Shown here piece after piece: positions 32,073 through 57,904 of a DNA stretch of 64,000 nucleotides. The notes below the pieces were generated by a model, which ran no database searches, was not told the DNA's origin, and saw only the letters and a list, made by a program, of their open reading frames with translations. Within the stretch, counting starts at the first letter, position 1. The number at the start of each line of letters is the position of its first letter. Location of the stretch: the NCBI GenBank assembly GCA_038363925.1, contig JAQQWL010000012.1:310001-374000 (forward strand). The letters are read 5' to 3'. The stretch comes from Apiospora phragmitis (lineage: Eukaryota; Ascomycota; Sordariomycetes; Amphisphaeriales; Apiosporaceae). The position numbers and the translations under genes were made by a program.

Positions 32073-34200
32073 TTTTGGCCAGTTAGAGAGAAACGGTACG
32101 AAAATCGACGCAGTAAGATTCCCGGGGCCGCCATGGCTACAGGGCCCTTTTTAGGAAAACCCTCCCTCATGCTGGTGTCGCGGTGGAGGGTGGTATTAGA
32201 CGGTCCGTGGTGGTGTGACAACAATGCGAAAAATAGGCTGGGGTTAGGATCGTTGAAGTCATCGGTTAGAGAAAGGGGGGCCAGGAGGGGCGTTTAAGTC
32301 CGGCAATCAATGCACCTTTGTAACATTAGTAACAGGTTGAGCCTAAAGCCACTTGGTTAGGGGCCGGGATTGGGGTAGCTCCAACTCTTTCGTGATTTGA
32401 AATGGCCATGGCGCCCTAGGTTAGATAATTTCTTCCATTCGAGTAAAGCGCGATCTTAACACTCAGATACGTTGGAAACATCTCGGGAAGACACGTTAGG
32501 TAATGCTGGCCCGTTTCCGATCTTGAGACGATCGTCCCGTATCAAAGATGGGCACGAAGATTGCTCAAGTCGAATACGAAACTGACGGCCAAAGATTGGG
32601 CAACACGAACAAAACATTCGAACTCAGAGCCCCTCGAATGTTTCGAAACGCTATTAAGTTGAGAGGCTCGGATACTTCGGACGGCGGTTTCACTAGTTGC
32701 ACTTTATCTTGACTTCACGAGACGCCACTCCACTGCCAAATTATGCGGCCTTGATCATACTGCAGAAATGCTATGAAGTTTCTTTGATTCGCATAACGAC
32801 ATCAGAAAGTAGATATGAGACTTGCAGCTGCCGACGGGATAACAGCCAACGCACTTTGTGCACCACCCTCGAGCTGCATCAGGCAGTAGGCCTTCAGCGC
32901 CACCAATGTCGATGCACAATAGTGATCGCCCTCTTCAACTCATGCCACTGAAGATAAGTCCAGTCGACGTTGATCAGTTTGACTGCAGGCGCCATTCCGA
33001 GCCGCTGCGGACTATGGTTCCTGCATGCGACGTTACACAATGCCTCCCCTGGCGCTACGGGCTGGTGTCCCTCTTGGTTGCTCTTGTCGGCTCTTATACG
33101 TTTACTGAACAACCTCGCGTAAATAAAGGCTTGTGCGTGAGTGTGTGGCGTTCAGGTTGGCATTGGTCGACTCGCGCTGCCTTACAACAAAGCTACCCGA
33201 GTCAGAAGTGATACAGGGCTAATGCGCTCGCCCAGAGGCAGCCCAGTGAGACATGGAGCGAGTAGTGGCCGAGAGCGAACTTTCATCCTTGCTGACTTTC
33301 GAAGAGTAAATCAGGTGCTGGTGAATTCGTGTCCCAGGCATACCATAATATTCTCCTAGGGTGACCATTCACCTCAATATCATGATCGTTGGAAACCTAT
33401 GTATGTTCGGCGTTAGGGGGAAGGTGGGAAGCGTTTAAAAGAAGACAATGGTAAGATGGAAGACTTCTTGATTACAACTCGAGTCCTAGTGTTCAGTGTA
33501 CGATGTTTTCTGGAGTCTATTCTATGGATGGAAATATGATGACGGGTAGAGAGGCTAGAAATCAGCGCCCCTATCTTACGTCGCACAGCGGACGGGATGT
33601 GACTTTCCTAAGTACATAGAAGAGCACACATCAACAGAAAGCCGATGGCATACGCCATCTGCGGATGTAGGTAGAACATTCGCCCGAAAGAGAAGTGTCT
33701 GAGAGGAAGATACAAAATGCTGATCCTCAGACAGTAATGCTTGTCGATCGCTCACTAGAGAGGTGAGACTTGGGTGCAGAGCATCTGCGCCGGTTGGACA
33801 TACCTGGCATCGATATATACTCCTGGATTAAGGAAAACCTCTGAAAATTTCGATTGGAGCGAAAGCCCTGTTACTCGAGAGCAGACAGACAATGCAGCAA
33901 GTCATTGTACCGCTGTTATACCACGTCAATCTGGACGCTATGGATCACATAATCAGTCGCCGCTTTTGCTCAAGCTTCGCTCAGGCCGGCTCAGGTTCGG
34001 CTTGTATGGTCTTGGCATTGGTCACTCCTGCTCACGTCCCTCCGGCTTATCCATTGCGACAACGGAGCTGCTGAAAGCGAACTGCCAAAGTGTACCAGGA
34101 TCTATAAACCACTTAGGAAAACATGGATGCGAACAAAGCACTGCCTTCAGACATGGGCGGAAAATAGAGCCAGGGGTAATCCTATACAAGTAGAAGCTCC
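32073..34200. other. Gene-poor intergenic region
   Basis: About 2.1 kb with only short frames that lack family resemblance, signal peptides or convincing splice structure. Base composition is balanced, so it is not RIP-degraded. Confidence 0.45.
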
Positions 34201-34439
34201 GAATATAGCTCTATAGAGCTAAAGATGGATACTTATAAAAACCTTCTTCCAACGAACTTGTTATGTTTTTCCTTCCCTCCTAGAATTCTTTTAACTTAGT
34301 TATTAAACGGTGTTTTTATATATAAGACTTCTTTTTCTTATTCTCTTACTAAGGAATATTCTCCTACTACTTTTATTAAAGTTTAAGCAGTTCGTTTAAT
34401 TCAAATAAACACGGCTTCCTTAAATCGTAGTAGTCGGTT

Positions 34440-35170
34440 CGATATCGGAGCCGCTCTCGACTTTGCTATTTAAAATGGGCTATCGGAGCGATTTACTATT
34501 AATGAACACGTTATTCGTAAGAAGCTCCAACGGAAAAGCAAAGAGGCTTACGAACGAGAAATAAAACTTTAGGAGTCGTATATTATTAACTGCTAAGGAG
34601 AGTATAAGCTTCTAACTTAAATAGATATATGTAACGATTTCCCGAATCCGATCCTCGTAATATGCGAACGATGAAGCACTTTGCCGAAGTTGTCGGAATA
34701 ACCACACCAGGAAGGTTAGATAAGACGGGAAAAGCCACTACCTAGAGCGTTAGGAACAAGATGCGACGATTCTATAATATGTGAGAACGCGATTACAAAG
34801 TTAGCATTCCAGAGGAAGTCAAGCTTTCGGTAGCGCCAGTGAGTTAAGTCTAATATCGTTACTTAACTAGTAGTTGTTATAACTAACTTATAGCTAGTAT
34901 ATAGACGGAGAGCTGGTGGATAAGTTGAATCTTTCGAGAGAGAAACGCCGGCTAACTTTTCTCACGATAGTAAACTACGTTCACCTGCAGGAGCATCTCT
35001 AGACTTGCGATCATTATAACTACTTATATGAAGGCAGTCGAGTGGACAGTGCTAATTTTCTTAACACCTACTGCTTTACGTTAGTACGACTGAATGAAGT
35101 TTGTTAGGCTGTCTACAAGGTTAGAGACTAGACTTCGGTAATCCGTTACAGCTTCGGCATCCACTAAGTA
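34440..35170 (+). pseudogene. Relic of a DUF3435-type (tyrosine recombinase-like) gene
   Basis: Through stops and frame changes, the plus strand reads segments like the fungal DUF3435/FluG-domain family. The first is GRLDKTGKATT..VRNKMRRFYN (34710-34780), then ERDYKVSIPEEVKLSVAP (34785-34850). After a gap come ELVDKLNLSREKRRLTFLTIVNYVHLQEHL (34905-35000) and YEGSRVDSANFLNTYCFTLVRLNEVC (35028-35108). This is the typical order of helices in these proteins. The flanks are TA-rich and many G:C positions look mutated to A:T, consistent with RIP. DUF3435 members include the captain recombinases of fungal Starship elements as well as stand-alone relatives; the surviving sequence does not show which kind this was. 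Confidence 0.6.
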
Positions 35171-35990
35171 TACTGTTGAATGGGCTTTTCGTACGTACGT
35201 ATAAAGATTAGTTTTGGGGTTCAGGTTGGTGGTATATTTATTCATTATCCTTCTACCTGCTGGTTAGCGGCAGCAGCCGCCAGAATACCATATATACGGA
35301 AAAGGGGCATGACTCGTGCGTATATGCACGTGACGTCCCTGGTGAAGGACCAGCCCCTGATAGGATATACTAACAGCGACTCTCCGATCAGGCAGCAATC
35401 AAGCGGTGTTGGCAGGTGACACGAACAGGCGACTCACTGGGTCCACTATTGTGGCGCTCTATAAAGGGCACACTTCCTGCCTATTGCTATAGCACGAAAA
35501 AGCAGTCAAGTTGCTTCACTTGAACGTCACGCTCGGAATCGTTTAAGCCGGTGAGTTGATTTGCCTAGGAGAGCCCCAGGGCAAAGTTATATACTATAAA
35601 AGGACAGAACAAGAGACGCAGAGTTGCTAGTGGAGAAAGTAAGCATCGTGTGAGGACAGGTCTCAACAGGAGTTGGACTTCATATACATACCAAAATAAC
35701 CACTCCGGTACCTTGAGTAGGTCCCACTTTTGGTCACTTAGTCGAGTGGTAAATTCAACAACAGTTACATGTCATGAATACATTACTCTACAATACCACT
35801 TTCGTTATATGACTTTTGAACAGAGCACCGACCAGCACACGGGTAATTACGGCAACGAGCTAGAATTAACACTAAGTTGTGCCCAAGGGAAAACCCTCAG
35901 GGGAATAAAAACCCTCGGGGACTTAGTCTAAGCGAATGTCCATTGACTGCCATCCCTTTCAAACGTTCCTAACAACTTTGTATCAGCCGC
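35171..35990. other. Non-coding flank
   Basis: No gene supported; short plus-strand frames near 35180-35930 show no family resemblance. The 3' UTR of the cysteine-rich peptide gene should lie at the right end. Confidence 0.4.
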
Positions 35991-36215
35991 TCACTGGCAC
36001 CTCCCGCTAGTTTGACCCGCCGAGACGAGGCAAAATCCCGAGCAGCAAGGCGGGTTGGAGGTGATCTCCTATAATTCGCGAATTAGCCATAGCCCAAGAT
36101 ATGCTTCTTTTTCTGTTGTACTTACGCAGATGTTACCGTCTGGGAGGCACGACTGGGCAGCAGCCTGAGCCGTGAAGACGGCAATGGCAGCGTAGACGTA
36201 GGTGGATATCTGCAT
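35991..36215 (-). CDS. Small secreted cysteine-rich peptide, cystine-knot (ICK-like) spacing
   Basis: Two exons (36215-36126 and 36068-35991) flank a 57-bp intron with GTAAGT and TATAG ends, and give a 55-residue protein. Residues 1-21 (MQISTYVYAAIAVFTAQAAA plus Q) are a clear signal peptide. The mature part of about 34 residues holds six cysteines: Cys23, Cys30, Cys38, Cys39, Cys43 and Cys54. This is C-x6-C-x7-CC-x3-C-x10-C, within the spacing of inhibitor-cystine-knot/knottin peptides. The intron falls exactly after Cys30. A TATAAAG lies about 140 bp upstream and the leader is CA-rich, as in well-expressed fungal secreted-protein genes. It is isolated between a recombinase relic and a RIP-mutated retrotransposon, a setting typical of candidate effectors. 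The fold and role (effector, antimicrobial or inhibitor) are inference; I know no named homologue. Confidence 0.82.
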
Positions 36216-36350
36216 CTTGATTGAGGGGGCGGTTGACCGTTGGTTGGTGGTGGAAGGTGGATGATGTCTTTTGTTTTTGGAGGTAGAATTGGCTTGTTGT
36301 GACTGTGGAAGTTTTTGGGACAGAAGGAAAGAAATGGAGACTCTCTCTGC

Positions 36351-36357
36351 CTTTATA
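36351..36357 (-). promoter_or_regulatory. TATA box of the cysteine-rich peptide gene
   Basis: TATAAAG on the minus strand, about 140 bp before the ATG at 36215, followed by an AC-rich leader that continues to the start codon. Confidence 0.5.
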
Positions 36358-36359
36358 GT

Positions 36360-38506
36360 TTTTTTTCGACGTGGAGAGGCGCGGCCTGCGCTCTTGGGAT
36401 ACTCATCGCCCGTTCGGGCGGGCTAGCACACAAGGCTTCGTTGATATTACCTATTGGTATGTAAACGCCAATATTACGTTAACCATCATAATTATGTTGC
36501 GATCATCGCTCGTCGTGATTGAGCCCGCAAACTATTGCCTAAAAAGTATGCAGGGTGCTTAGAAGGCACAGTCAGAAGTATGCGTAAGATCCAGACATGG
36601 TATTCCCGCCGATGGTATTCCCGCTTCACCCAACGTGAGTATTAGCCTTTTTTTAATGGGCATAGGAGTTATCAATTGAGTTTCCCCCGGTGTGTTAGAA
36701 GTCGAAATCGGTAGTTAAAGCTATGTTGAACTTTGGCGCCTTCCACTCCGAACCTATTTGTGTCCAACACGTTTGTGAATAGCAAGGCCGCATATCCTAT
36801 TCGACCTGAAGTCTTTAAGTTGCTATCGAGACATCGTTTTAACTGACTTCTGAAAAGACGGATGCCAGTTTTCTCCCTGGAAGCCGATATCCGAACTTGA
36901 TGCCATTTCCTGTGTGAAATTGGCTGTTGTCACCGGTCATGGAACGATCACCAATAAGCCTTAAGGCACGGGACGTGGGAGCCACCTTAGTATAGGCAAA
37001 GATTAGCACTCGGTTACCAACTGCAGTCAGCAAGGCAGTCCTTGGACGTCGCTTGAATTTATTGATGTTACAATATACGAAACTTGGCGGCCGTCTGCTG
37101 ACGGCTTACCCACCAACTTGCTGATGGATATGGAAGGTTGGGGTAAACAATGGAAACAAAGCCGTTGACATTACGCCCCGACCTCTGCGCCTTCAACCGG
37201 GAATTGTATATTATGAATGAAGTCATAATATTGCATCTCTTCTCAGCATTGGTTGATTGTTGAACGCTTTAGCTAGATGGTAAAGGTAAAAGTTTGCGAA
37301 CGCTGACAACTCCTTACCGGTACTGGCTCGGACTTATTGAAGCGGAAGATCGAGATTTCACAACGGTACACGCGGCTTGTGTGACACGAGGACGGCATCT
37401 GTTGCCGAACTCCTTGAATCGGTCTTATTTTCTGGTCTGCATGTATGTCAAATGAAGAGAAGCGGGAAAGCAAAATTCACACCTCAAGGCCTCAACCTTT
37501 TCCCTCGATTTTCCTGTGGTGTACCTATCTAGGTAGGTATCATTTCCCAGGCTTTGCTGTCGATCCTTTGGTTTTAGGTCATATTCTGAAAGACTTCGAA
37601 GAGATCCCCAGTGGAATCATTTTCTACGACCAGAATTGGAGTCGCCTACCTAGGTAATGTATCTTGAATGAGATTCCTAAAGAAGGAGCGTCGATGCGGG
37701 GGCGAAGAATGCTACAGTAATGTGCATTTTGCCTATGTGCCCATAGAACACCGCCTCCTGTCAGACCGTGACACAAGAGCGGGGAAGGCTTGGTAGAGAG
37801 GTGCCCAATGTTCAGAAAGTTTGTTTTGCCAATTGTGGCAGGCTGCAGCTGAGAGCGGTGGTGGATACTGTGCTCCCGTCAAGAGGACTGACAACATCTA
37901 GCGATGGACTTGAATCCTTCGGTGGCTAGGATCATACCTGGAAGTCGATGCCTGTGTGGATTCCTGTCTGGCGTTGCTCCGCCTAAAACAGTGTGAGTAA
38001 AAGCTCACGCATCGCACCAGCGCCGTGTTACTCATTGCTTATCATTCTGCGGGGTGAGAATTGCTCTTTGGGATTTCATTGCAACTGCCGGCAGCCAAAC
38101 AGAAACCTGCGGGAACGGTAAAACATTGTGCGAGAGTGGATAAGCAGCGTGCGGAGCATGCGGATGACTATTGATTACAAAGCATGACTTGGAAGTAGTA
38201 TATACATTGATCATTATTTGAATTAGATACTTTCATAATTACTATACGTAAACAACGGTTGAGAGAATGTACAAATCCGCTGTTGGATGGAATGAACCGA
38301 CTTCAACCAAACAAGACGCGCATACTGGACAAGCACGTGAGTTTGGTGAATCTATACAGAGACAGGCTCCATTTCCAACCCTGGAATTTCCGGACTCTTG
38401 GGTCTCCTCTCGTGCTTTCATTAGTTCCCATCTGTTGCTACTTTTTGCCACTTATATGGAGCTTTTCATCGGTAACGTGCTAATGCAGGACCAAGCGCAT
38501 AACGGG
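36360..38506. other. Gene-poor intergenic region
   Basis: Frames of 60-98 codons occur but none resembles a family. A minus-strand frame at 36839-37033 reads smoothly but is not recognised. Two CCTAGG-centred palindromes (37522-37539 and 37647-37657) are noted without a feature call. No RIP signature. Confidence 0.4.
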
Positions 38507-38511
38507 GCTTC
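38507..38511. repeat. Target-site duplication (left), GCTTC
   Basis: GCTTC directly precedes the left LTR and is repeated directly after the right LTR at 44437-44441. Five bases is the usual copia duplication length. Confidence 0.85.
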
Positions 38512-38745
38512 TATCGCAACCACGGATAGGGATAATGGCAATGAGATTAGAGCTACCTATTAATTAAGGCCCAAAGAATCTGTCCAGGTCCTATAGTTCT
38601 GTCTATATATACTGTTCGACGCTGTGCGTACGAGCGCCACGAGTTATGGCTGGAATGTCGCTATCCAGCCGGTTGTCGACTGACTCGCGTCGTCTGATCT
38701 AGCTAAACCTTTACCGAGTCAGCTATGCCACCCTGCGTTGCGACA
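38512..38745 (-). repeat. LTR of copia element (3' LTR in element sense)
   Basis: This is 234 bp, matching 44203-44436 in length and, except for transitions, in sequence. It ends GTTGCGACA, so an intact LTR should begin TGTCGCAAC; it begins TATCGCAAC, a G-to-A change of RIP type. Just inside the element a CACCCCCTAG string (38746-38755) reads as a purine-rich tract on the coding (minus) strand, where the polypurine tract belongs. Confidence 0.9.
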
Positions 38746-41700
38746 CACCCCCTAGATTACGATGGGTGATCAGTTTATAGTAATCTGCTTCGAGTAGTAT
38801 TAGTGGCTAAAGGCGTTCTCGCTAAATGTCTTTGAGGTTTAGCAGAGATCGAAAGTGCTCGAACTTCTATTATGATAAAGACTTGGTAAAACTGTCTGCT
38901 AGCATAATTATAGTAGGTAGATAATTAAGGAGGAATGTTCCCTTCATATATTCCTGCTTAAGCTATATATTTTAAATATCTATATATTTAAAACGCGTAT
39001 CGATCTGTTGGCCTTAACTTATTACGAGTCGAATAGTCTAGAGATTATTATAATATACCTTAAGAGGCTCGCTAAGATCCAGGGCGATTTGCTTTATAAG
39101 GCGTTGAAGGGCGATTGCCTCCTTAGTTGTCCTTTCGACTCCGAGGAGCTCTGCTTCGGTTGTTGATGTGGTGACCGTATCTTGTAGTCCTGAGCGCCAT
39201 ATAATCGGTCTACCGAAGAGTAGGACCAGGTATCCGGCTAAAGACCGTCTGGTTTCCTTATTGTCTGCGAAGGAAGTGTCGCTTGTTATAATTAAGGCTT
39301 TTTTATACTTTCCGTTATATTTAATAGCTAAGAATCGAGTATTATATAAGTATCGGATCATTTGCTCTACTGCTTTAATATAATTAGCTAAAAGGTTTAT
39401 TAAAAATTATAATAGCTAGGCTATAGTGCGAGTAATGTCTAGGCGGGTAATAACTGCTGTGTATATAATAGATTTAACTATCTCTTAATAAAGCTTAGTT
39501 TCCTCTCTTGTTACAATTCCTAGATTCCTTGAAAGAGGCGTTGTTGGTATCGGAATTGTGGGCATATACCGGTCGGTTTCTATAATTAGACTAAAGCGCC
39601 TGGCTACCTTCTCTACATAGGTGTCTTAGCAGAGATAGAGTTTCTAGCTAGTTCGGTCTCTAACTACCTTAATTCCGAGGAACCATTAGATATCTCTTTC
39701 TTCTCGAAGCTTATATTTAGCTTTCAGCATCTAGATAAGGTTATCTATAGAGGATTTGTCTTACTTTTAAGAAAAAATAAAGATGTCGACTATATAAAAG
39801 AGGATTAGAAGCTTGTCGTTAATAAAGATATAGTTCTCCTCGGAGGTTCGATAAAGTCCTATATCTTCGAGGCTCTTAGCTAACTCCTTGTACTATAGCA
39901 GAGGTGATTCCCTTAGGCTATAAAGGGCTTTATTTAGTTCGGCGACCTTCTAGTTATCTTCTCTAGCTTATATAAACCCAAGTCCTTTATACCCTTAAGG
40001 GAGCTGGCAGTAGATACTTCCCTTACTTTTATCGATATTGCTATTTAAGAAGGTATTTATAACGTTGTACTGCTTGTACTCGAGGTCGTAACAGGCATAT
40101 ATAGCTATTACTAGTTAGAATGACTTTGCTACCAGCGTAGCTGTGTAGGTCTCGTTGCTTAGATCGAATTAGAGATCTCCTTATATATAGATTTATACTT
40201 TATATCTAATTAGGTTTCCGTTTTTATCTGTTTTATATATAAAGACCTATTTGAAAAGAAGAGGCCTAGTAGAAGCTTTTAATTAGTCGATTAGCCTCTA
40301 GGTTCTTCTCTATAAGAGCTCTTAGAGCTCTTTTCTATAAGCTTCTTAAAACTGCTGTCTGTATTCGTGTGTCCTTAGGTCTGCGTATGTCTTTAGTGGA
40401 CGTGGGAGGCTCGACCTAGGTGTTTGTTAAATAGCGGCGAGAAAAACGCTATATAGTTTATAGATTTCTTTATTTATTAGCTAGTCTTCTGCCTTTTCTT
40501 TAAACAAGACTGCCCCTGCGAAGGGCGTCTGAAGTCTCTTATTTCTACGCGTTGGCTCGTCGTTATACACTTCTAATCGAGTCCGTCTGTACCTCTTCGT
40601 TAGTTGTATAAGTTCGCTTTATAATAGATTAAGCTATATAGTAAGAGTATCTTAATATGTTTCCCTTAAATTTAACTCTACTTAAACTATAATTATATTA
40701 TTATATAATCCTTAAGTTTACTAATTAAAAGGTGTGGGATAAGCGGTTAGCTCGTTTACCGATGGCTCGTTTCGCGGTATACTAGTTTGCGCGTTAGGAG
40801 CATCTTGATATACATCCCCTGGATATACCCCTACTTAGGCCGGACTTGAAACCCCTTCTTCACCTTGCTGCTGTATCCAGTCAGGGACGTCTCCCACGCT
40901 GGTTAGACTCTTAGGCAGGTCGTCAGGAAGTAAAACCCCTTCTTCACCTTGCTGTGTTAGCAGGTCGTTAGGAGGTGTTGCCCGTACAGGCGGTCCCTCT
41001 CTAGGTTCCATTAGGTCTGTGAGAGTCTGTACGTTGAATGGCAGTTGCGATAGGTGCTGTTCTGGGAGTGCCCTTATTTGATCAGAAGTTGTATTCACCT
41101 CGGGAGGTTCAGGTGTCTAATCAGGGGTAGCGTAAGGAGAAAGAAGTCCCGTGTCTTCTATAGGCTCTATCTTTACCCCCGAGTTCTTAGTCCTTTCGCT
41201 TAGTAGCGCCTGTAATGTGTCTTGCTATAGGCACTCTTCGTTGCTAAAGACGATAGTGTTAAATTCGATTTCGAGCTGAGTATATAGTTAGGGCTCTAAT
41301 AACAATTTAAACGTGAGTAAGTCCCTTGTTACTTTAGCTCTTAACGCTATAGTCTTTTCTTTAGGTGTATAGTATATCGACTCGTCGAAAACCACATCTC
41401 GAGAGATAACTACCTTATTTAGCTCTAGGACCTAGATCCGGTAGATATTAAGTATAACATAGTTAATAAGGTAGCTAATATAAGCTTATACATATGTCTT
41501 ATAGTAATTGCTTTTAACTCGCTTAGTCTGTTTATATTTAACTTTTAAAGGGTAGGCCTTATGGCCGTAGGCGTAGATACCGGTCCAGTTTAGTCGATAA
41601 TTAATCTCTTCGAATAGATATCCTGGGGCTTAGTACCAGCGATGGTAGAGAGAAAACCACTTTTCCAGGCGTTCTTTTAGCGAGACCCAGTGGTTGCGGC

Positions 41701-44202
41701 GGACAGGGGTCATGTTATACAGATATGCTGCTGCTTGCTAGGCTTTAGGCTAGAGATTAGAAGGAAGCTTCGCTTAGAGGCTTATATAGTTTACTTTAGT
41801 CTATATAATCCCGCTATATCGTTCTGCTCCGCCGTTAAGCTCTTTGGTATAAGAGGGTGTTGTCTTAATGTCGATGCCCTCCTCTTTAACCTATTATAAA
41901 ATTTTGCTTTCCACCTAGTCCTCGAAGTTTAGGATGCTGCGGTCTCTATCTATCCGGATCTTAAGGATAGATAGCCCTAAGTGTTATCGGACATATTGCT
42001 TAAATTACCATATAATATCTTTAGTATCTAGTTTATTAACGATTAGATATACATATATATAACCACTATACTTATCGCTTATTACGCACGTATATTAGCA
42101 GTAGTTATAGTCCTTTTTTAATAAAAAAAGGTTAAGCCGGATCCTTTAAAAAGGCTGCTTAGCTTAGCTCTCGCTAAGCTCGTGGGAGATAATCTTATAT
42201 ACTTTCCCTATACTGCAATAGGGGCATTTCTTTATTTAAATCCCTTTAAATTAGACATTCCTCCCTGCCTTAATAAGCTTCTCTAGGGATCTTGCTCCTA
42301 TATGTCCACTGCGTAAGTGCCAGACCCAGGGATCGTTAGTCCTGGCTAGTTTAGGGTCCTTCGACGTCCGTCTTAAGCGTCTAGTTAGTAGTCCCTTATT
42401 TAAAAGGCACTAAAGATATATAAGTAGGAATAGAGCAGTTTAATATAAGAGGAATAAACTAGGATATATTTAATAATCTAAAGGTTATATCTCTTATTAA
42501 AAGTTATTATAATCCTATTACTTTCTAAGCTTTTATATTATAATATGCTGTCTAGGCCACAGGTCTAGTAGCCTTCCTTTTCGAGAAGAGTACCACTAAC
42601 GATATTTGTATAGAAGGAATTACAGCTACATTCTAAAGGATAAGGTCTCGAGTCCGCTCTCCCTCAGGGCCGTTAAGGACGTTCTTAATTACACGAGTGC
42701 CCCTTATAGTGACTCTAAGGCGGCTTGTCCTAGCAAGTATAGAATTATCGTCGTAAACAGGCTTTATAGAACTTAGAACCAGTAGAGACTTGTCGTTAAT
42801 TAAGTGCTCGCTAGACTTATAATTATAGATTATTAACTAATATAATAGATATTTAATAAGAGCTATAATCGTTCTTAAAGTATAATCTATTAATTAATTT
42901 ATTAATACGACTTTAATAAAATAGTTATCGTTATATAGTTTATTATATCCTATAATAAGGTTTATTAAAGCTAGTTAATTACTATTACTTAACTCGATAT
43001 TAATATTAATTTATAATAGCTTAATAGGTAAAAGTATTTCTTTATAATTATCTTAAAGCTTAGTAACGATTTTATGCTACTATTATTTATCGAGCTCCTT
43101 TTTATATCTATTAATAGTCTCTTTTTTTAATTTATACCTATAAGATAAGTGATCGATAATCCTGTTAAGAACTGCCTTTTAAAGGATTTAGCAATTCTTA
43201 AGCTTAAACGTATATCTGCGGTCTGCAATAGAATAAGGGCATTTATATGTCTTCCTGGTGCTTTTCGACTCTTAACTAGATTCTTTGCCGTTCTTATCTT
43301 TCCCTTAAAAGGTAATGAAGACACTCCTAAACGTAGGATTACATCTCGATTCCCTAGTAGAGCTTCGGATTGTCTTAATGAAGAGCTCGCCTACCTGTTT
43401 TAAGGTAAAGACTGCCTGCCCCTCGTTAAGTACCTCATGCTCGGCTATTTGTTGTCTGACTCCCTCAGCCTAGGAATGAGCGTAGGGTTCAACTGCTTGG
43501 AGAAAGTAGTTGATTAAAAGGTCTCCAACGACTTTAGGGACATTATATCGCTCGGCCAGGTTCCTTTTTAGCTCCCAGGTCTTATACCACTCGATTAGAT
43601 CAGTTGATTTGCTCTGAACAGATAGGGTATTAATATATTTTATCTAGGCGATTCGCTTTTACTTAAGGTCGAATGGTGCTAGCTTAGATTATAGATATTT
43701 AATTATAGTAGGCAGGTCCGCTTTAATAGGGCAAAGCTAGATCTAAGAATAGTTAATTATTTAGAGAACTTAGTTATATAAGGCCTTAACTCTAGTACGG
43801 TTATTAAGGAATTTACTTAAATTAAATTAATATTATTTAACTAGTATATTATAATATATTTAATTAAACTCGGTTAAAGTTTTAAGTGTCTTATTCCTTA
43901 ATTTTATAAAGTCTTAGTATAAGTTTAAACTTAGCTTAATTAGCTCCTCGTCTATATCGATATTAGCGTATTTAGCGATATTAAATCTATACGCCTTATA
44001 CTTATAAGCTTTAAATTAAGGCTTTTAATCTTAAGTAGTTTTTAAAGCTACTTAAATTAAGTAATAAATTATTTAACTTATTATAATAAGATAAGTTAAA
44101 TTAAATAATATAATATAATTATAGTTAATTATTTAATAAAATTTATAAAATATAATGTTTAATAATATAAGCTAATTAAATTATAAGTACCGGGCTTATA
44201 AC

Positions 44203-44436
44203 TATCGCAACTATAAATAAAGATAATAGTAATAAGATTAGAGCTACCTATTAATTAAGGCTTAAAGAATCTATCCAGGTCCTATAGTTCTATCTATATA
44301 CACTGTTCGATGCTATGCGCACGAGCGCTACGAGTCATAGCTAGAATGTCGCCATCCAGCCGGTTGTCGACTGACTCGCGTCGTCTGATCTAGCTAAACC
44401 TTTACCGAGTCAGCCATGCCACCCTGCGTTGCGACA
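44203..44436 (-). repeat. LTR of copia element (5' LTR in element sense)
   Basis: This is 234 bp, beginning TATCGCAAC and ending GTTGCGACA, and the mate of the LTR at 38512-38745. Differences between the two are almost all C/T or G/A, as expected from RIP. The GCTTC duplication follows at 44437. Confidence 0.9.
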
Positions 44437-44441
44437 GCTTC

Positions 44442-45322
44442 TTTTTCTCACCTGGGCATCTATATATGCTACTGCCAGGCTGGAGTTGTAACACAGTCTC
44501 TTTCAAAGTACAGCATTATCTAGGCGTGAGGTACTTGGAGGACCTTGTGCTGCCTAGGGTGCTATGGGTCGGTCTGGTGAGCGCGCTTACCTTCAAGTTG
44601 CCCTGTACAATATCACTCGGCAACTGACTTACCCGCGATTTGTTAAGGCACAGTTGTTATAGTGTATCAAGTTGAAAGTACGTCGCTCAGGAAACACGCT
44701 CGTTTCTGATGGCGCTAACACAGCCGCATAAAAATCGCCGTTCGGCGTTATACTCATGCTGTCAGGTATCAGCAATTTCAAGATGTCTTTGACTCTAAAG
44801 CCGGCTTGGGACTGAGTGGCCTTGTGCATCAGATGCTCATGATTGAGTCAGCACGAGTCGTTCGTTATTCGCGTATCGGAATATGGATTTCCCAGTTGGG
44901 AAATGTGGCCGACATCCAGTCCCGCATCATTGCCGAGTGGGGCGCGATAGACAAGCTCCCGTGGCTAAGCAACGGCCTGTTATGTCAGTATCCATCTGAC
45001 TGTTTGCTAAATGGCATGCCGGCTAACGGTGTGAGCTGTTTGTTGAAGGCCTTTCAACGCTGCCCCTTCATCTAGCGGTCACCTATGAAATCCAGAATTC
45101 TAACGAAACATACCTTACAAAGAAAAGATGCAGCATGTGTACACCGTCTAATTCGTGCCGAGGGAGATTGGTTGCCTGTCTTCTAGGTTGGTTAGGCGTT
45201 CATGAGGCATGGCAACAAGAATCGCTCATAAGTAGAACGTAATTTTCTATTCTTGGACTGCTTCACCATCCTCATCATCCAGCATCCCACAAATAACCAC
45301 CCACTTTGGTAATCCTACAACG
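44442..45322. other. Intergenic, no gene assigned
   Basis: A plus frame at 44806-45075 and a minus frame at 44629-44829 read smoothly but show no recognised family. The right half should hold the promoter of the F-box-like gene. Confidence 0.4.
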
Positions 45323-54294: not shown

Positions 54295-55284
54295 ATGCAG
54301 TACTCCATGATCTTCACATCGGCTCTGGCCACGTTCGCCACCGTCGACGCGGCCCCACTTGAGCAGCGCACCCCTCAGTACGTCCCTTTGCATCCACCCA
54401 ACAACTAATCTGGTCATCGTACTTTCACTTACATAGGTTGCCTAGGGGTGTGCTCGGCGGCCTTCTCGGTGACGGCGGAGCCAGCGGCAACAGTGGCAGC
54501 GGACAACAGCAGGGCGGCAGCAATGCCGGTGTTGGTGGCCTTCTCGGCGGCCTAACTGGTAGAGACACCGAGGTCGAGAAGCGCACCCCTCAGTAAGTTC
54601 TTTATTAATACTTACCCAATAGCTGAGTCATCGTACTCTCACTTACACAGCCTGTCTAGAGGTGTTCTTGGCGGTCTCCTTGGAGACGGCGGCTCTAGCG
54701 GCTCTGGCAACGGACAACAACAGGGCGGCAACAGCGGTGTTGGTGGCCTTCTGGGTGGCCTGACCGGCAGAGATGCCGAAGTCGAGAAGCGCAGCCCTCA
54801 GTAAGTATAACCAGTTCGCTGAAGGCTCTTTTTAGACATTTTCTAATTCGTACTACTCAGGGGTGTCCTGGGCGGTCTCCTTGGTGATGGCGGCTCTGCC
54901 AACAAAGGTAACGGACAACAGCAGGGCGGCAACAGTGGTGTTGGTGGCCTTCTCGGCGGCCTGACTGGTCGAGATGCCGAGGTCGAGAAGCGCACCCCTC
55001 AGTAAGTTTATTCTTCCGATGCGGGCTCGGTCCGGACGGTTTCTAATTCATGCTCTTTAGGGGTGTTCTTGGTGGTCTTCTCGGCGACGGTGGCTCCGCC
55101 AACAAGGGCAACGGACAGCAGCAGGGCGGCAACAGTGGTGTTGGTGGTCTTCTCGGCGGCCTGACTGGCAGAGATGCCGAGAACTGGAAGCGCAGCTTCC
55201 AGTGAGTCAATCATGTGGCTTATGCTAGGCTTGGGTTCAACGTGTCGAACTTGTCCTCCTAGGTGGTTTCGGTGGTCTTCGTAA
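54295..55284 (+). CDS. Secreted Kex2-processed repeat protein built of exon-repeat units
   Basis: Six exons, all split at the same phase inside a CA|G codon: 54295-54377, 54446-54592, 54660-54800, 54861-55001, 55061-55201 and 55263-55284, about 224 residues. Residues 1-19 (MQYSMIFTSALATFATVDA) are a signal peptide. Exons 2-5 each encode one repeat of 47-49 residues. A repeat starts GVLGGLLGDGG, has a Gly/Asn/Ser/Gln linker with QQQGG, continues GVGGLLGGLTGRD, and ends EVEKR (NWKR in the fourth) followed by (T/S)P or SF. The KR pairs are expected kexin sites, so at least four Gly/Leu-rich peptides should be released in the secretory path. Exons 3-5 are each exactly 141 nt. In repeats 1 and 2 an upstream acceptor (9 nt earlier) would add LPR or HLSR. 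No UstYa-like tailoring gene is nearby. A KEP-type repeat precursor is the best label; its product is unknown. Confidence 0.85.
54437..55262 (+). repeat. Tandem exon-intron repeat units inside the precursor gene
   Basis: Four units of about 200-215 bp, each one exon plus one intron. The exons are nearly identical. The introns also match in pairs: introns 1 and 2 share TCATCGTACT.TCACTTACA, and introns 3 and 4 share TTTCTAATTC near their 3' ends. The gene therefore grew by duplicating whole exon-intron units, not coding sequence alone. A fifth, decayed unit follows at 55263-55370. Confidence 0.85.
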
Positions 55285-55545
55285 TAACAGTGGCTCCGAG
55301 GCCGACTATAGTAACGGAGAGGAAGGCGGACACCCTGGTGGTGGACATTGTATCCATTGCATGGAATATGTAAAGAATTTTCCTATGTATACTTTACGAA
55401 TATATTTTCTTCTCCTTTACTTATAGATTATAACTTGATGCATTATGTCCTGCTTTTTGTGGTGCGATGATTAAAACCGTGCACTAACTAATGCGCTAGC
55501 AAGGCACGCTCGATTGTGAATCAAACCTAGCCTTTTCTATGCGTA

Positions 55546-55590
55546 AGCCAGCTGACGGTGCTACGGTCACCCCATGTAACGGCGACCCCT
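55546..55590 (+). repeat. Left terminal inverted repeat of the Fot1/pogo element
   Basis: Pairs with 57421-57465. The repeat core contains CTACGGTCACCCCATG and ACGGCGACCCC. Confidence 0.9.
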
Positions 55591-57420
55591 AAATTTAGAT
55601 AGCCCTTGATAGTACTACATATAAATTAGTATATAAACTAGTCAGCTTTTGATTTATAATTAATTAAATAATACCATCGTTTTCCTTTTCTTTTCCTCTT
55701 TCCGATAGGCTGTAAACTTAACGAGTTAGTACTGTAACGCGCGATTTAGGATATTATAAATAGCTCGTTAATAAAATAAGCCGCCGAGAAGTATAATATT
55801 TTTAGAATAATTCTAAGGGCTTGGATTCACGGCCGCAAGACTATAAAATAACGGAATAAGTCCTTCTAGGCCTTAATAATAGCGGAAAAGTTTTAGATCG
55901 TAATTTAATACCTTATATAATATGATCTAAGCTGCTTACCGGCGCACGTTATTTTCTAGATGTTTACCTAACGGATTTTTTAAGCTAACGGGATTAATAT
56001 AATCCTCGGTAAGCATTAAGTTAAAAGATTTATTACTCGCTATCCATTTATCGGTGTTACTTTTTTTAAGAGGATAGATTTTTTAAAGCTTAACGTAACT
56101 TTTATAAAAAAAATTATCGAGTTTTTCGAACGGCTTAATAATCCTATTTTAAAATCGATCCCTCTAGAGTTTCGGTTTAATATTGACGAGATCGGTAATT
56201 AGTTCGGCTGTGGAACGAATATAATAATTATTAGACCTGTTAGAATAAAGAGAATACTAGTTATAAACTCTTTTAATTAAAAATAGGCTTTTACGGTCGA
56301 ATATAATAATGCTTTAGGCCGAGCTTTACCTTCTTTTATTATATTTAAGGGTTAATAAGTTCAGTAGTAATGGTTTCCGGAGGAGGAGGACTTATTAATA
56401 GATGTTATAGAGGATTAGGTTTTTGCGGTATCCCCTAAAGGCTAGACCAATAAGGAGCTGGCCCTGGTGTAACTAAATGAGGTCTTTATCCCTTATATAA
56501 AGCTTGAAAACGAGGACTAGTGGCGGCTTATTATTCTGGATAGTTACGCCAGCCACGTAAACGAGGACTTTATTATAACGTATTTAAAGTATAAAATATA
56601 GCTTCTCTTTTTTTCGGCATACTTGTCGCACCTATTATAACCCCTAGATCTTGGTCTCTTTAATATATTAAAGGATACCTACCACCGGAAGGTAACCCTA
56701 TATTATATAAGGCTTAATAATATAAATATAAATAAAAAGGACTTCTTTTAATATTACGAGCTAATTAAAAGGTTTACCTTTCGGCCGTATATAATAATTA
56801 ACGGCTAGGCCGTAACTAATATATTCCTTCGCGATATTAATAAGCCCCTTAATAGCTAGAACTGGAGGATAGAAAACTAAGCAAAGGCAGGACCATCTAA
56901 GCCTCCCCCCAACGTTTTTAATAAACAATTCTTTTTTATAACGTTACTAATACTTATAACCAGCCGCTAAATTAAAGAATTAGCGGATACGCTTAGTAAT
57001 AATAATGCTATTTTCGATAACGCGACGCGCCGGGTTTTATTCCGGAAGCTCCAGAAAAGTCTAAATACTTTAAACGGCTAAATCGGCTAACTAGAGCACG
57101 AGAAGTCAGTTTTAGAAGGTAATCTAAAAAAAGAAAGAGGTAAAAAGAAGAAAAAAGTAATGCCTAACCCTAACTAGAAATTTACGCGTATACGAAATGC
57201 TATAATAATTAAAAGGGAAATAAATGGCGTTATACTAGAACCCTAGGCTATTACTCCTTTATTATCGACGCCGGAAGCCGTTATAATTAAATCTAACTCT
57301 GAATCTGAGATTAAAAGTATTATAAAAGCGTTTCGGGACTGAAATAGTATTTTTAGGATTTTGTATTAATTTTTAATTATATTATTCGTATTATTATTAT
57401 ATAGTATTGTTGTTGGTTTT

Positions 57421-57465
57421 TGGGGTCGCCGTTGCATGGGGTGACCGTAGCACCGTCAGCTGGCT
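57421..57465 (-). repeat. Right terminal inverted repeat of the Fot1/pogo element
   Basis: Reverse complement of the left repeat; a T/C difference in CATG(T/C)AACGG is visible. A TA dinucleotide follows. Confidence 0.9.
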
Positions 57466-57467
57466 TA

Positions 57468-57904
57468 CTCGGCGGATCTAGCAGCTCGCGACGCAGCAGG
57501 CACCATACCCACCCCAGATCAATCCTCCACCCGGCGTGACTGATTACGCGAGCCGAGCTTTTACCGAGGAACCGTTGGACATGCTTCTCGGTCTCCAAAT
57601 GTGGCTACCGTATGTGTGAAAATTGCAGCTAACATTACGACGATAGTCCGGGGTATGATACGAATCCTCAATTGGGTGCTGTACTCCTGTATGACTGCGG
57701 CACAGTCAGCGCAGGCCTTGCGCGGACCGAGCTCCGAGCTCCGAGATACGGATCGGACTTCGCCGACAAAACAGGCAACAGCATCATCCAAAACACAATT
57801 TAGGCCGACTATTTAAGCTGGCTTTCCTTTCTCAATATCACAGCGGAAGGGCTGGTCAGTTGCAACATTGGATTTCTGGCCTACCACCAGCGCCATTATT
57901 CGAG
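57468..57904. other. Upstream region of the GNAT gene
   Basis: About 440 bases with no gene; the promoter of the acetyltransferase should be here, directly beside the transposon end. No RIP leakage is obvious past the repeat. Confidence 0.45.

Follow-up and report, generated by a model that had tools for sequence, protein, structure and literature searches.

Our analyses of a 64,000 nucleotide (nt) stretch of the Apiospora phragmitis genome (hereafter the window) have identified a gene which very probably encodes the precursor of a Kex2-processed repeat protein (KEP), fitting the published description of these precursors in its sequence features. Five well-supported exons, beginning with an ATG at position 54295, are joined into a product of 218 residues that contains four near-identical repeat units, compared with the three or more units with dibasic Kex2 sites by which KEPs are recognized. 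Each unit is encoded by its own exon, and this exon-per-peptide layout is the most unusual feature of the gene. The layout provides a clean case for asking whether duplication of exons drives the evolution of peptide copy number and whether splicing adjusts it. The gene also allows the mature peptide to be predicted precisely (viz. its start, end, mass, and pyroglutamate), while few KEPs, of which 7878 are reported to have been predicted (PMC7329392), have a known product or function.

Structure of the Gene and its Repeat Units

The coordinates of the gene and of the features around it are listed in Table 1. The start codon lies in the context ATCAACATGC and the signal-peptide-like start, as judged by eye and from hydropathy, is made up of the hydrophobic stretch MIFTSALATFA followed by VDA-AP. 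The original prediction of such a start followed by four nearly identical Gly/Leu-rich units, each in its own exon and each ending in Lys-Arg (KR), agrees with our results (KR in 4/4 units), and the tandem arrangement was picked up independently by Tandem Repeats Finder (201-nt period, 3.6 copies, score 715). The prediction's reading of the gene as a secreted precursor of the Kex2 type is likewise supported. Exons 3–5 are, as predicted, of the same length, and repeats could be gained or lost in frame, since the exons are symmetric and the introns are of phase 2. The claim that all of the introns split the same CAG codon has to be amended for intron 2, where the codon is rejoined as CAA (still Gln). 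The model of five introns and six exons is supported by donors and branch motifs for exons 1–5 and introns 1–4, whereas intron 5 and exon 6 are weak.

Table 1. Features of the precursor gene and its neighborhood, in window positions.
Feature	Position	Strand	Characteristics
Peptidase M28 and PA domain pieces	46.5–48.1 kb	minus	Pfam
TATA box-like TATATAA	54091..54097	+	About 200 nt upstream of the ATG; precedes a pyrimidine-rich leader with 69% C+T
Exon 1, 83 nt	54295..54377	+	Start codon, signal-peptide-like MQYSMIFTSALATFATVDA-APLEQR, TP-CA of the first unit
Intron 1, 68 nt, phase 2	54378..54445	+	Donor GTACGT
Exon 2, 147 nt, repeat unit 1	54446..54592	+	Alternative acceptor would give start at 54437
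Intron 2, 67 nt, phase 2	54593..54659	+	Donor GTAAGT; 70% identity to intron 1
Exon 3, 141 nt, repeat unit 2	54660..54800	+	Alternative acceptor would give start at 54651
Intron 3, 60 nt, phase 2	54801..54860	+	Donor GTAAGT
Exon 4, 141 nt, repeat unit 3	54861..55001	+	
Intron 4, 59 nt, phase 2	55002..55060	+	Donor GTAAGT; 66% identity to intron 3
Exon 5, 141 nt, repeat unit 4	55061..55201	+	Ends in NWKR-SFQ
Proposed intron 5, 61 nt	55202..55262	+	Donor GTGAGT; weakly supported; retention gives protein end ...KRSFQ
Proposed exon 6	55263..55284	+	WFRWSS-stop; doubtful
Degenerate stretch like a fifth unit, other frame (GGFGGLRNNSGSEADYSNGEEGGHPGGGHCIHC)	55263..55362	+	DNA alignment z in text
DNA transposon, 1926 nt	55543–57468		51-nt terminal inverted repeats, 96% complementary
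GNAT piece	58.5–58.8 kb	plus	Pfam
GMC oxidoreductase or FAD-binding models	59.0–63.3 kb	minus	Pfam

A branch-like motif with its A located 14 nt from the intron end is present in each of introns 1–4, and introns 1 and 2 have others too. These two introns also contain an in-frame AG located 9 nt upstream of the acceptor, the use of which would yield TPQLPRGVL or TPHLSRGVL and alter the starts of units 1 and 2; the 14-nt branch spacing favors the downstream AG in both. In intron 5, the sole branch-like motif is situated 40 nt from the intron end, and the proposed exon 6 contributes only WFRWSS-stop, while the repeat-like frame at this place (GGFGGLRNNSGS) is a different one. On these three grounds (viz. 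branch distance, short ending, and mismatched frame) exon 6 was rejected as a firm exon. The degenerate stretch which begins there aligns at the DNA level with exon 5 (z 4.8), and less so with exon 4 (z 3.4), exon 3 (z 3.0), and exon 2 (z 1.7), and its repeat-like frame finishes in GGGHCIHC. Acceptors at 55290 or 55311 would lead into the repeat-like frame; a scan for branch motifs found none near 55290, and no support was found for either acceptor. None of the options for the 3' end alters the four units.

The units are 49, 47, 47, and 47 residues long, and their alignment covers 48 columns with 36 invariant residues; KR is kept in all four of them while other positions vary. Pairwise comparisons of exons 3–5 revealed 21, 28, and 23 differences in 138 coding positions, resulting in 4, 6, and 4 amino acid changes, respectively. 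In random-mutation (neutral) simulations of these three pairs (5000 per pair; exon 2, which has a different length, was omitted), as few amino acid changes were obtained in none of the runs, the simulated means being 13.4, 17.1, and 14.3. The dN/dS ratios for the three pairs, calculated from NG86 dN and dS, are approximately 0.16, 0.21, and 0.11. The differences among these exons are thus mostly synonymous, which indicates that the protein is under selection. The introns bear traces of duplication as well: the identities of intron 1 to intron 2 (z 9.5) and of intron 3 to intron 4 (z 7.6) are well above those of shuffled controls, while of the other 8 intron pairs one reaches z 4.5 and 7 stay below z 4. 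Hence, the duplicated unit consisted of an exon together with an intron, and the copy number of the peptide would shift by duplication of this exon-plus-intron unit of about 200 nt.

A DNA search found only a single copy of the gene in the genome (52.67 Mb in 19 contigs), and all 5 pieces matched in a protein search of the genome are its own exons. The DNA pattern of the exon ends (KR, one codon, Pro, and CAG followed by a GTRAGT donor) occurs 3 times in the genome, each time within this gene, and its reversed control has no match. Searches of Pfam with the 218-residue product returned 4 families at E values up to 1, all of them under the curated cut-offs and judged to be due to chance, and no match to it was found among PDB sequences at E values up to 1. 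Searches of prokaryote and viral contigs, which as non-fungal collections say little about this gene, gave 566 and 84 pattern matches, respectively, none of which was confirmed, and five repeat strings were absent from the open papers searched.

Exon-Per-Peptide Layout and Possible Intron Retention

The phase of the introns and the donor sequences GTAAGT or GTGAGT of introns 2–5 have the consequence that read-through into any of these introns meets a stop codon, TAA or TGA, immediately behind CAG. Products of 77, 124, 171, or 218 residues would result if intron 2, 3, 4, or 5, respectively, were retained, each of them finishing with complete repeats and three further residues, and a transcript keeping intron 1 would encode 37 residues without any repeat. 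These stops follow automatically from phase and donor sequence and hence they are not evidence of regulation. From the sequence one may nevertheless construct an exon-modular precursor, in which each exon supplies one peptide plus a KR-T/S-P spacer, duplication changes the dose over evolution, intron retention could set the dose within the cell through shorter precursors that finish with complete repeats, and the products would form a new class of long, pyroglutamate-capped surface peptides with Gly/Leu blocks; we regard this extended proposal as speculative and rather unlikely.

A narrow search of open papers found no precedent for a KEP with one exon per repeat among the matches listed. The main text of the KEP survey does not contain the word "intron" (PMC7329392); the survey is therefore silent on the frequency of this layout, and other KEPs may share it. 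The available part of a report on pheromone precursors says nothing on introns between the repeats (PMC10182648), and in the glycine-rich proteins of Glomeromycotina the introns, one or two in number, are described as lying close to the signal sequence rather than recurring with each repeat (PMC8786786). A partial precedent, and no more than that, is provided by the SP7-like effectors. The SP7 family of Rhizophagus irregularis also consists of secreted repeat proteins with predicted Kex2 sites (PMC5293756), and SP7 is reported to have five mRNA versions arising by differential splicing (PMC4617103). However, its repeats are hydrophilic and 6–16 amino acids (aa) long, it is reported to act in the nucleus of the host, and the portion of the literature available names a single conserved intron, placed ahead of the first repeat, instead of an intron for every repeat (PMC11333574).

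Predicted Processing and Mature Peptides

The KRs of three of the four units are followed by Thr-Pro (TP) or Ser-Pro (SP) and then by Gln, which constitutes an STE13 signature, described as XP or XA after a Kex2 site (PMC6339444), and which was missing from the original prediction. From this arrangement we infer the following route. The signal peptide would be removed first, Kex2 would then cleave in the Golgi on the C-terminal side of KR, a carboxypeptidase of the Kex1 type would strip the KR, and a Ste13-type dipeptidyl aminopeptidase would take off Thr-Pro or Ser-Pro. The mature products would be linear peptides of 43–45 residues with an N-terminal Gln (likely as pyroglutamate) and the pattern QGVLGGLLGDGG...GQQQGG...GVGGLLGGLTGRD(A/T)E(VE/NW), with predicted ends DTEVE for unit 1 and DAENW for unit 4. 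When a Coprinopsis KEP was expressed in Pichia, mass spectrometry is reported to have detected peptides that had lost XA/XP and had Gln or pyro-Gln as their first residue, and several further KEP peptides from Coprinopsis itself begin with pyro-Gln (PMC9769878). Two features count against this reading: SF, not an STE13 dipeptide, follows the last KR (NWKR-SFQ vs. VEKR-(T/S)PQ elsewhere), and unit 1 is preceded by Gln-Arg (QR), not Lys-Arg. Candidates for the processing enzymes are present in the genome, viz. one partial match to the Kex2-type P-domain (58 of 86 positions, with a TAA inside the six-frame match, as an intron would be expected to cause), DPPIV_N at 2 loci, and 30 matched pieces of Peptidase_S10; these matches are to families and do not amount to proof of the identity of Kex2, Ste13, and Kex1.

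The trimmed peptide of unit 3 (QGVLGGLLGDGGSANKGNGQQQGGNSGVGGLLGGLTGRDAEVE) has 43 residues, an average mass of 3952.2 Da, a pI of 4.5, and a mean hydropathy of −0.39 (all computed); with pyro-Gln, the mass would be lower by about 17. The hydropathy profile has positive values in both Gly/Leu blocks and drops to about −2.5 in the linker. With two hydrophobic blocks and a polar Gly/Asn/Gln linker, the peptide would be able to assemble on the surface of hyphae or spores and to work there like a repellent or a surface-active wall peptide. This role is assigned by analogy and with less confidence than the processing route, and the best explanation as a whole, in which a KEP precursor yields repellent-like surface peptides, appears to us plausible although a little short of evenly balanced. 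Against the surface role stand the negative mean hydropathy, the poor AlphaFold2 model of one 46-residue unit (mean pLDDT 60, pTM 0.21), and the lack of a helix over the first block, a low-confidence helix being predicted only at model residues 27–43. A fold search of this model against viral models found no matches. Knockouts of six kep genes in Coprinopsis cinerea are reported to have had no apparent phenotype (PMC9769878), and a surface role is therefore not the rule among KEPs.

Comparison with Known Systems and Alternative Explanations

The gene shares with KEPs (Le Marquer et al., 2019, PMC6339444; Umemura, 2020, PMC7329392) a signal-peptide-like N terminus, at least three near-identical units, and KR between the units, and it differs from them in having one exon per unit, although this may hold for other KEPs as well. 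The lack of UstYa near the gene is also shared, as 22% of KEPs have one (PMC7329392). The peptides were originally considered unusually long at about 47 residues, a view which cannot be upheld: KEP motifs are reported to span 3 to 352 aa, with 25–50 aa used as a class (Le Marquer et al., PMC6339444), and the Kex2-cut amphipathic peptides of Rep1 from Ustilago maydis, which form surface-active amyloid-like fibrils, are 35–53 aa long (PMC4617103). Kex2 sites and a similar peptide length are common to Rep1 and this gene, and of the Rep1-type features the peptide has a length within this range and two hydrophobic blocks with a polar linker, with a negative mean hydropathy; the peptide is compatible with Rep1 in its length and block structure. 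The Rep1 precursor is from a basidiomycete and has 12 repeats, compared with 4 units in this ascomycete gene.

The Kex2/Kex1/Ste13 route is also that of the ascomycete alpha-pheromones, and a linear peptide serving as a secreted, pheromone- or hormone-like signal would agree with the KR followed by an X-P dipeptide that both have (KR-(T/S)P-Gln in 3 of the 4 units here) and with a contig that, like nearly all pheromone precursors, lacks a UstYa match. However, the peptides of 43–45 residues are far longer than the 9–24 aa of the alpha-pheromone class, they have neither the Cys pair nor the PYGxPxG motif of the class, and their content is of low-complexity Gly/Leu/Gln type, which makes a signal improbable; a pheromone pattern had no match in the genome and did not lead to the true pheromone gene, and this comparison is accordingly incomplete. 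Another unlikely product is a membrane-active peptide, be it antimicrobial or host-acting. Candidalysin acts on membranes, and membrane-active peptides are usually cationic. The two Gly/Leu blocks of positive hydropathy and the low-confidence helix recall such peptides, and candidalysin, which is released by Kex2, has been named as a KEP product (PMC9769878). The trimmed peptide, in contrast, is acidic in its pI, and it has no long uninterrupted hydrophobic helix in a model of low confidence; no report of a candidalysin-like Kex2 peptide in Fusarium was found among open papers. For a ustiloxin-type (dikaritin) precursor cyclized by UstYa, the gross architecture of a signal-peptide-like start and predicted Kex2-cut repeats is the same, but none of the at least 31 matches to UstYa (PF11807) in the genome, a lower bound obtained from a six-frame search, is on this contig, none is among the 29 neighboring ORFs scanned, and the core is long and Gly-rich. 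The units are also devoid of Tyr and Cys, and Trp is confined to the spacer end of unit 4; Tyr is usual rather than obligatory, being present in 65.6% of KEP repeats near DUF3328 genes (PMC7329392). With no UstYa match found on the contig and Tyr missing from all 4 units, the original statement that the gene does not match dikaritins is supported, and we reject a dikaritin as highly improbable.

Two further explanations dispense with a released peptide or with a functional gene. The Gly/Leu/Gln repeats could remain as one chain in an uncleaved or partly cleaved cell wall or matrix protein, and GN/GQ-rich repeats have been linked with amyloid features (PMC8786786). The retention of KR in 4/4 units despite variation elsewhere, together with the T/S-P directly behind it, which is best explained by trimming after cleavage, speaks against this rather unlikely arrangement. 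Decay of the gene, with its last unit out of frame and a transposon inserted on its 3' side, would be in line with an exon 6 frame unlike that of the repeats, the weak intron 5, and the RIP-mutated transposon beginning 342 nt past exon 5. It is distinctly unlikely, given that units 1–4 are open and conserved, that exons 3–5 have an excess of synonymous change, and that promoter-like features are present.

Genomic Surroundings

The gene content, the introns, and the RIP-like repeats point to a filamentous fungus. Pfam scans covered the product and 29 ORFs, with 27 taken from the 68 that reach 150 aa or more, plus two shorter ones. Besides the neighbors in Table 1, pieces of a secretory lipase, an AAA ATPase, a P450, and ankyrin were identified elsewhere in the window; Rfam and tRNA scans of the whole window yielded 0 and 0 matches. 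On other contigs, several of the UstYa-family pieces lie near one another (e.g., C5 at 3.81 Mb, C6 at 0.24 Mb, and C13 at 1.72 Mb), and hence true dikaritin-type clusters may exist there.

The transposon downstream of the gene is AT-rich and has RIP-like dinucleotide ratios. A 1401-nt piece of it is found at no fewer than 43 places in the genome including itself (40 of 162 candidates were scored), with the 42 others at 83–88% identity. AT-rich sequence with RIP-like dinucleotide ratios also occurs at positions 1–2900 (GC 0.25) and 34000–45000 (GC 0.41) of the window. In the precursor gene itself, the TA/AT ratio is raised (1.29) and the second index is normal (1.1).
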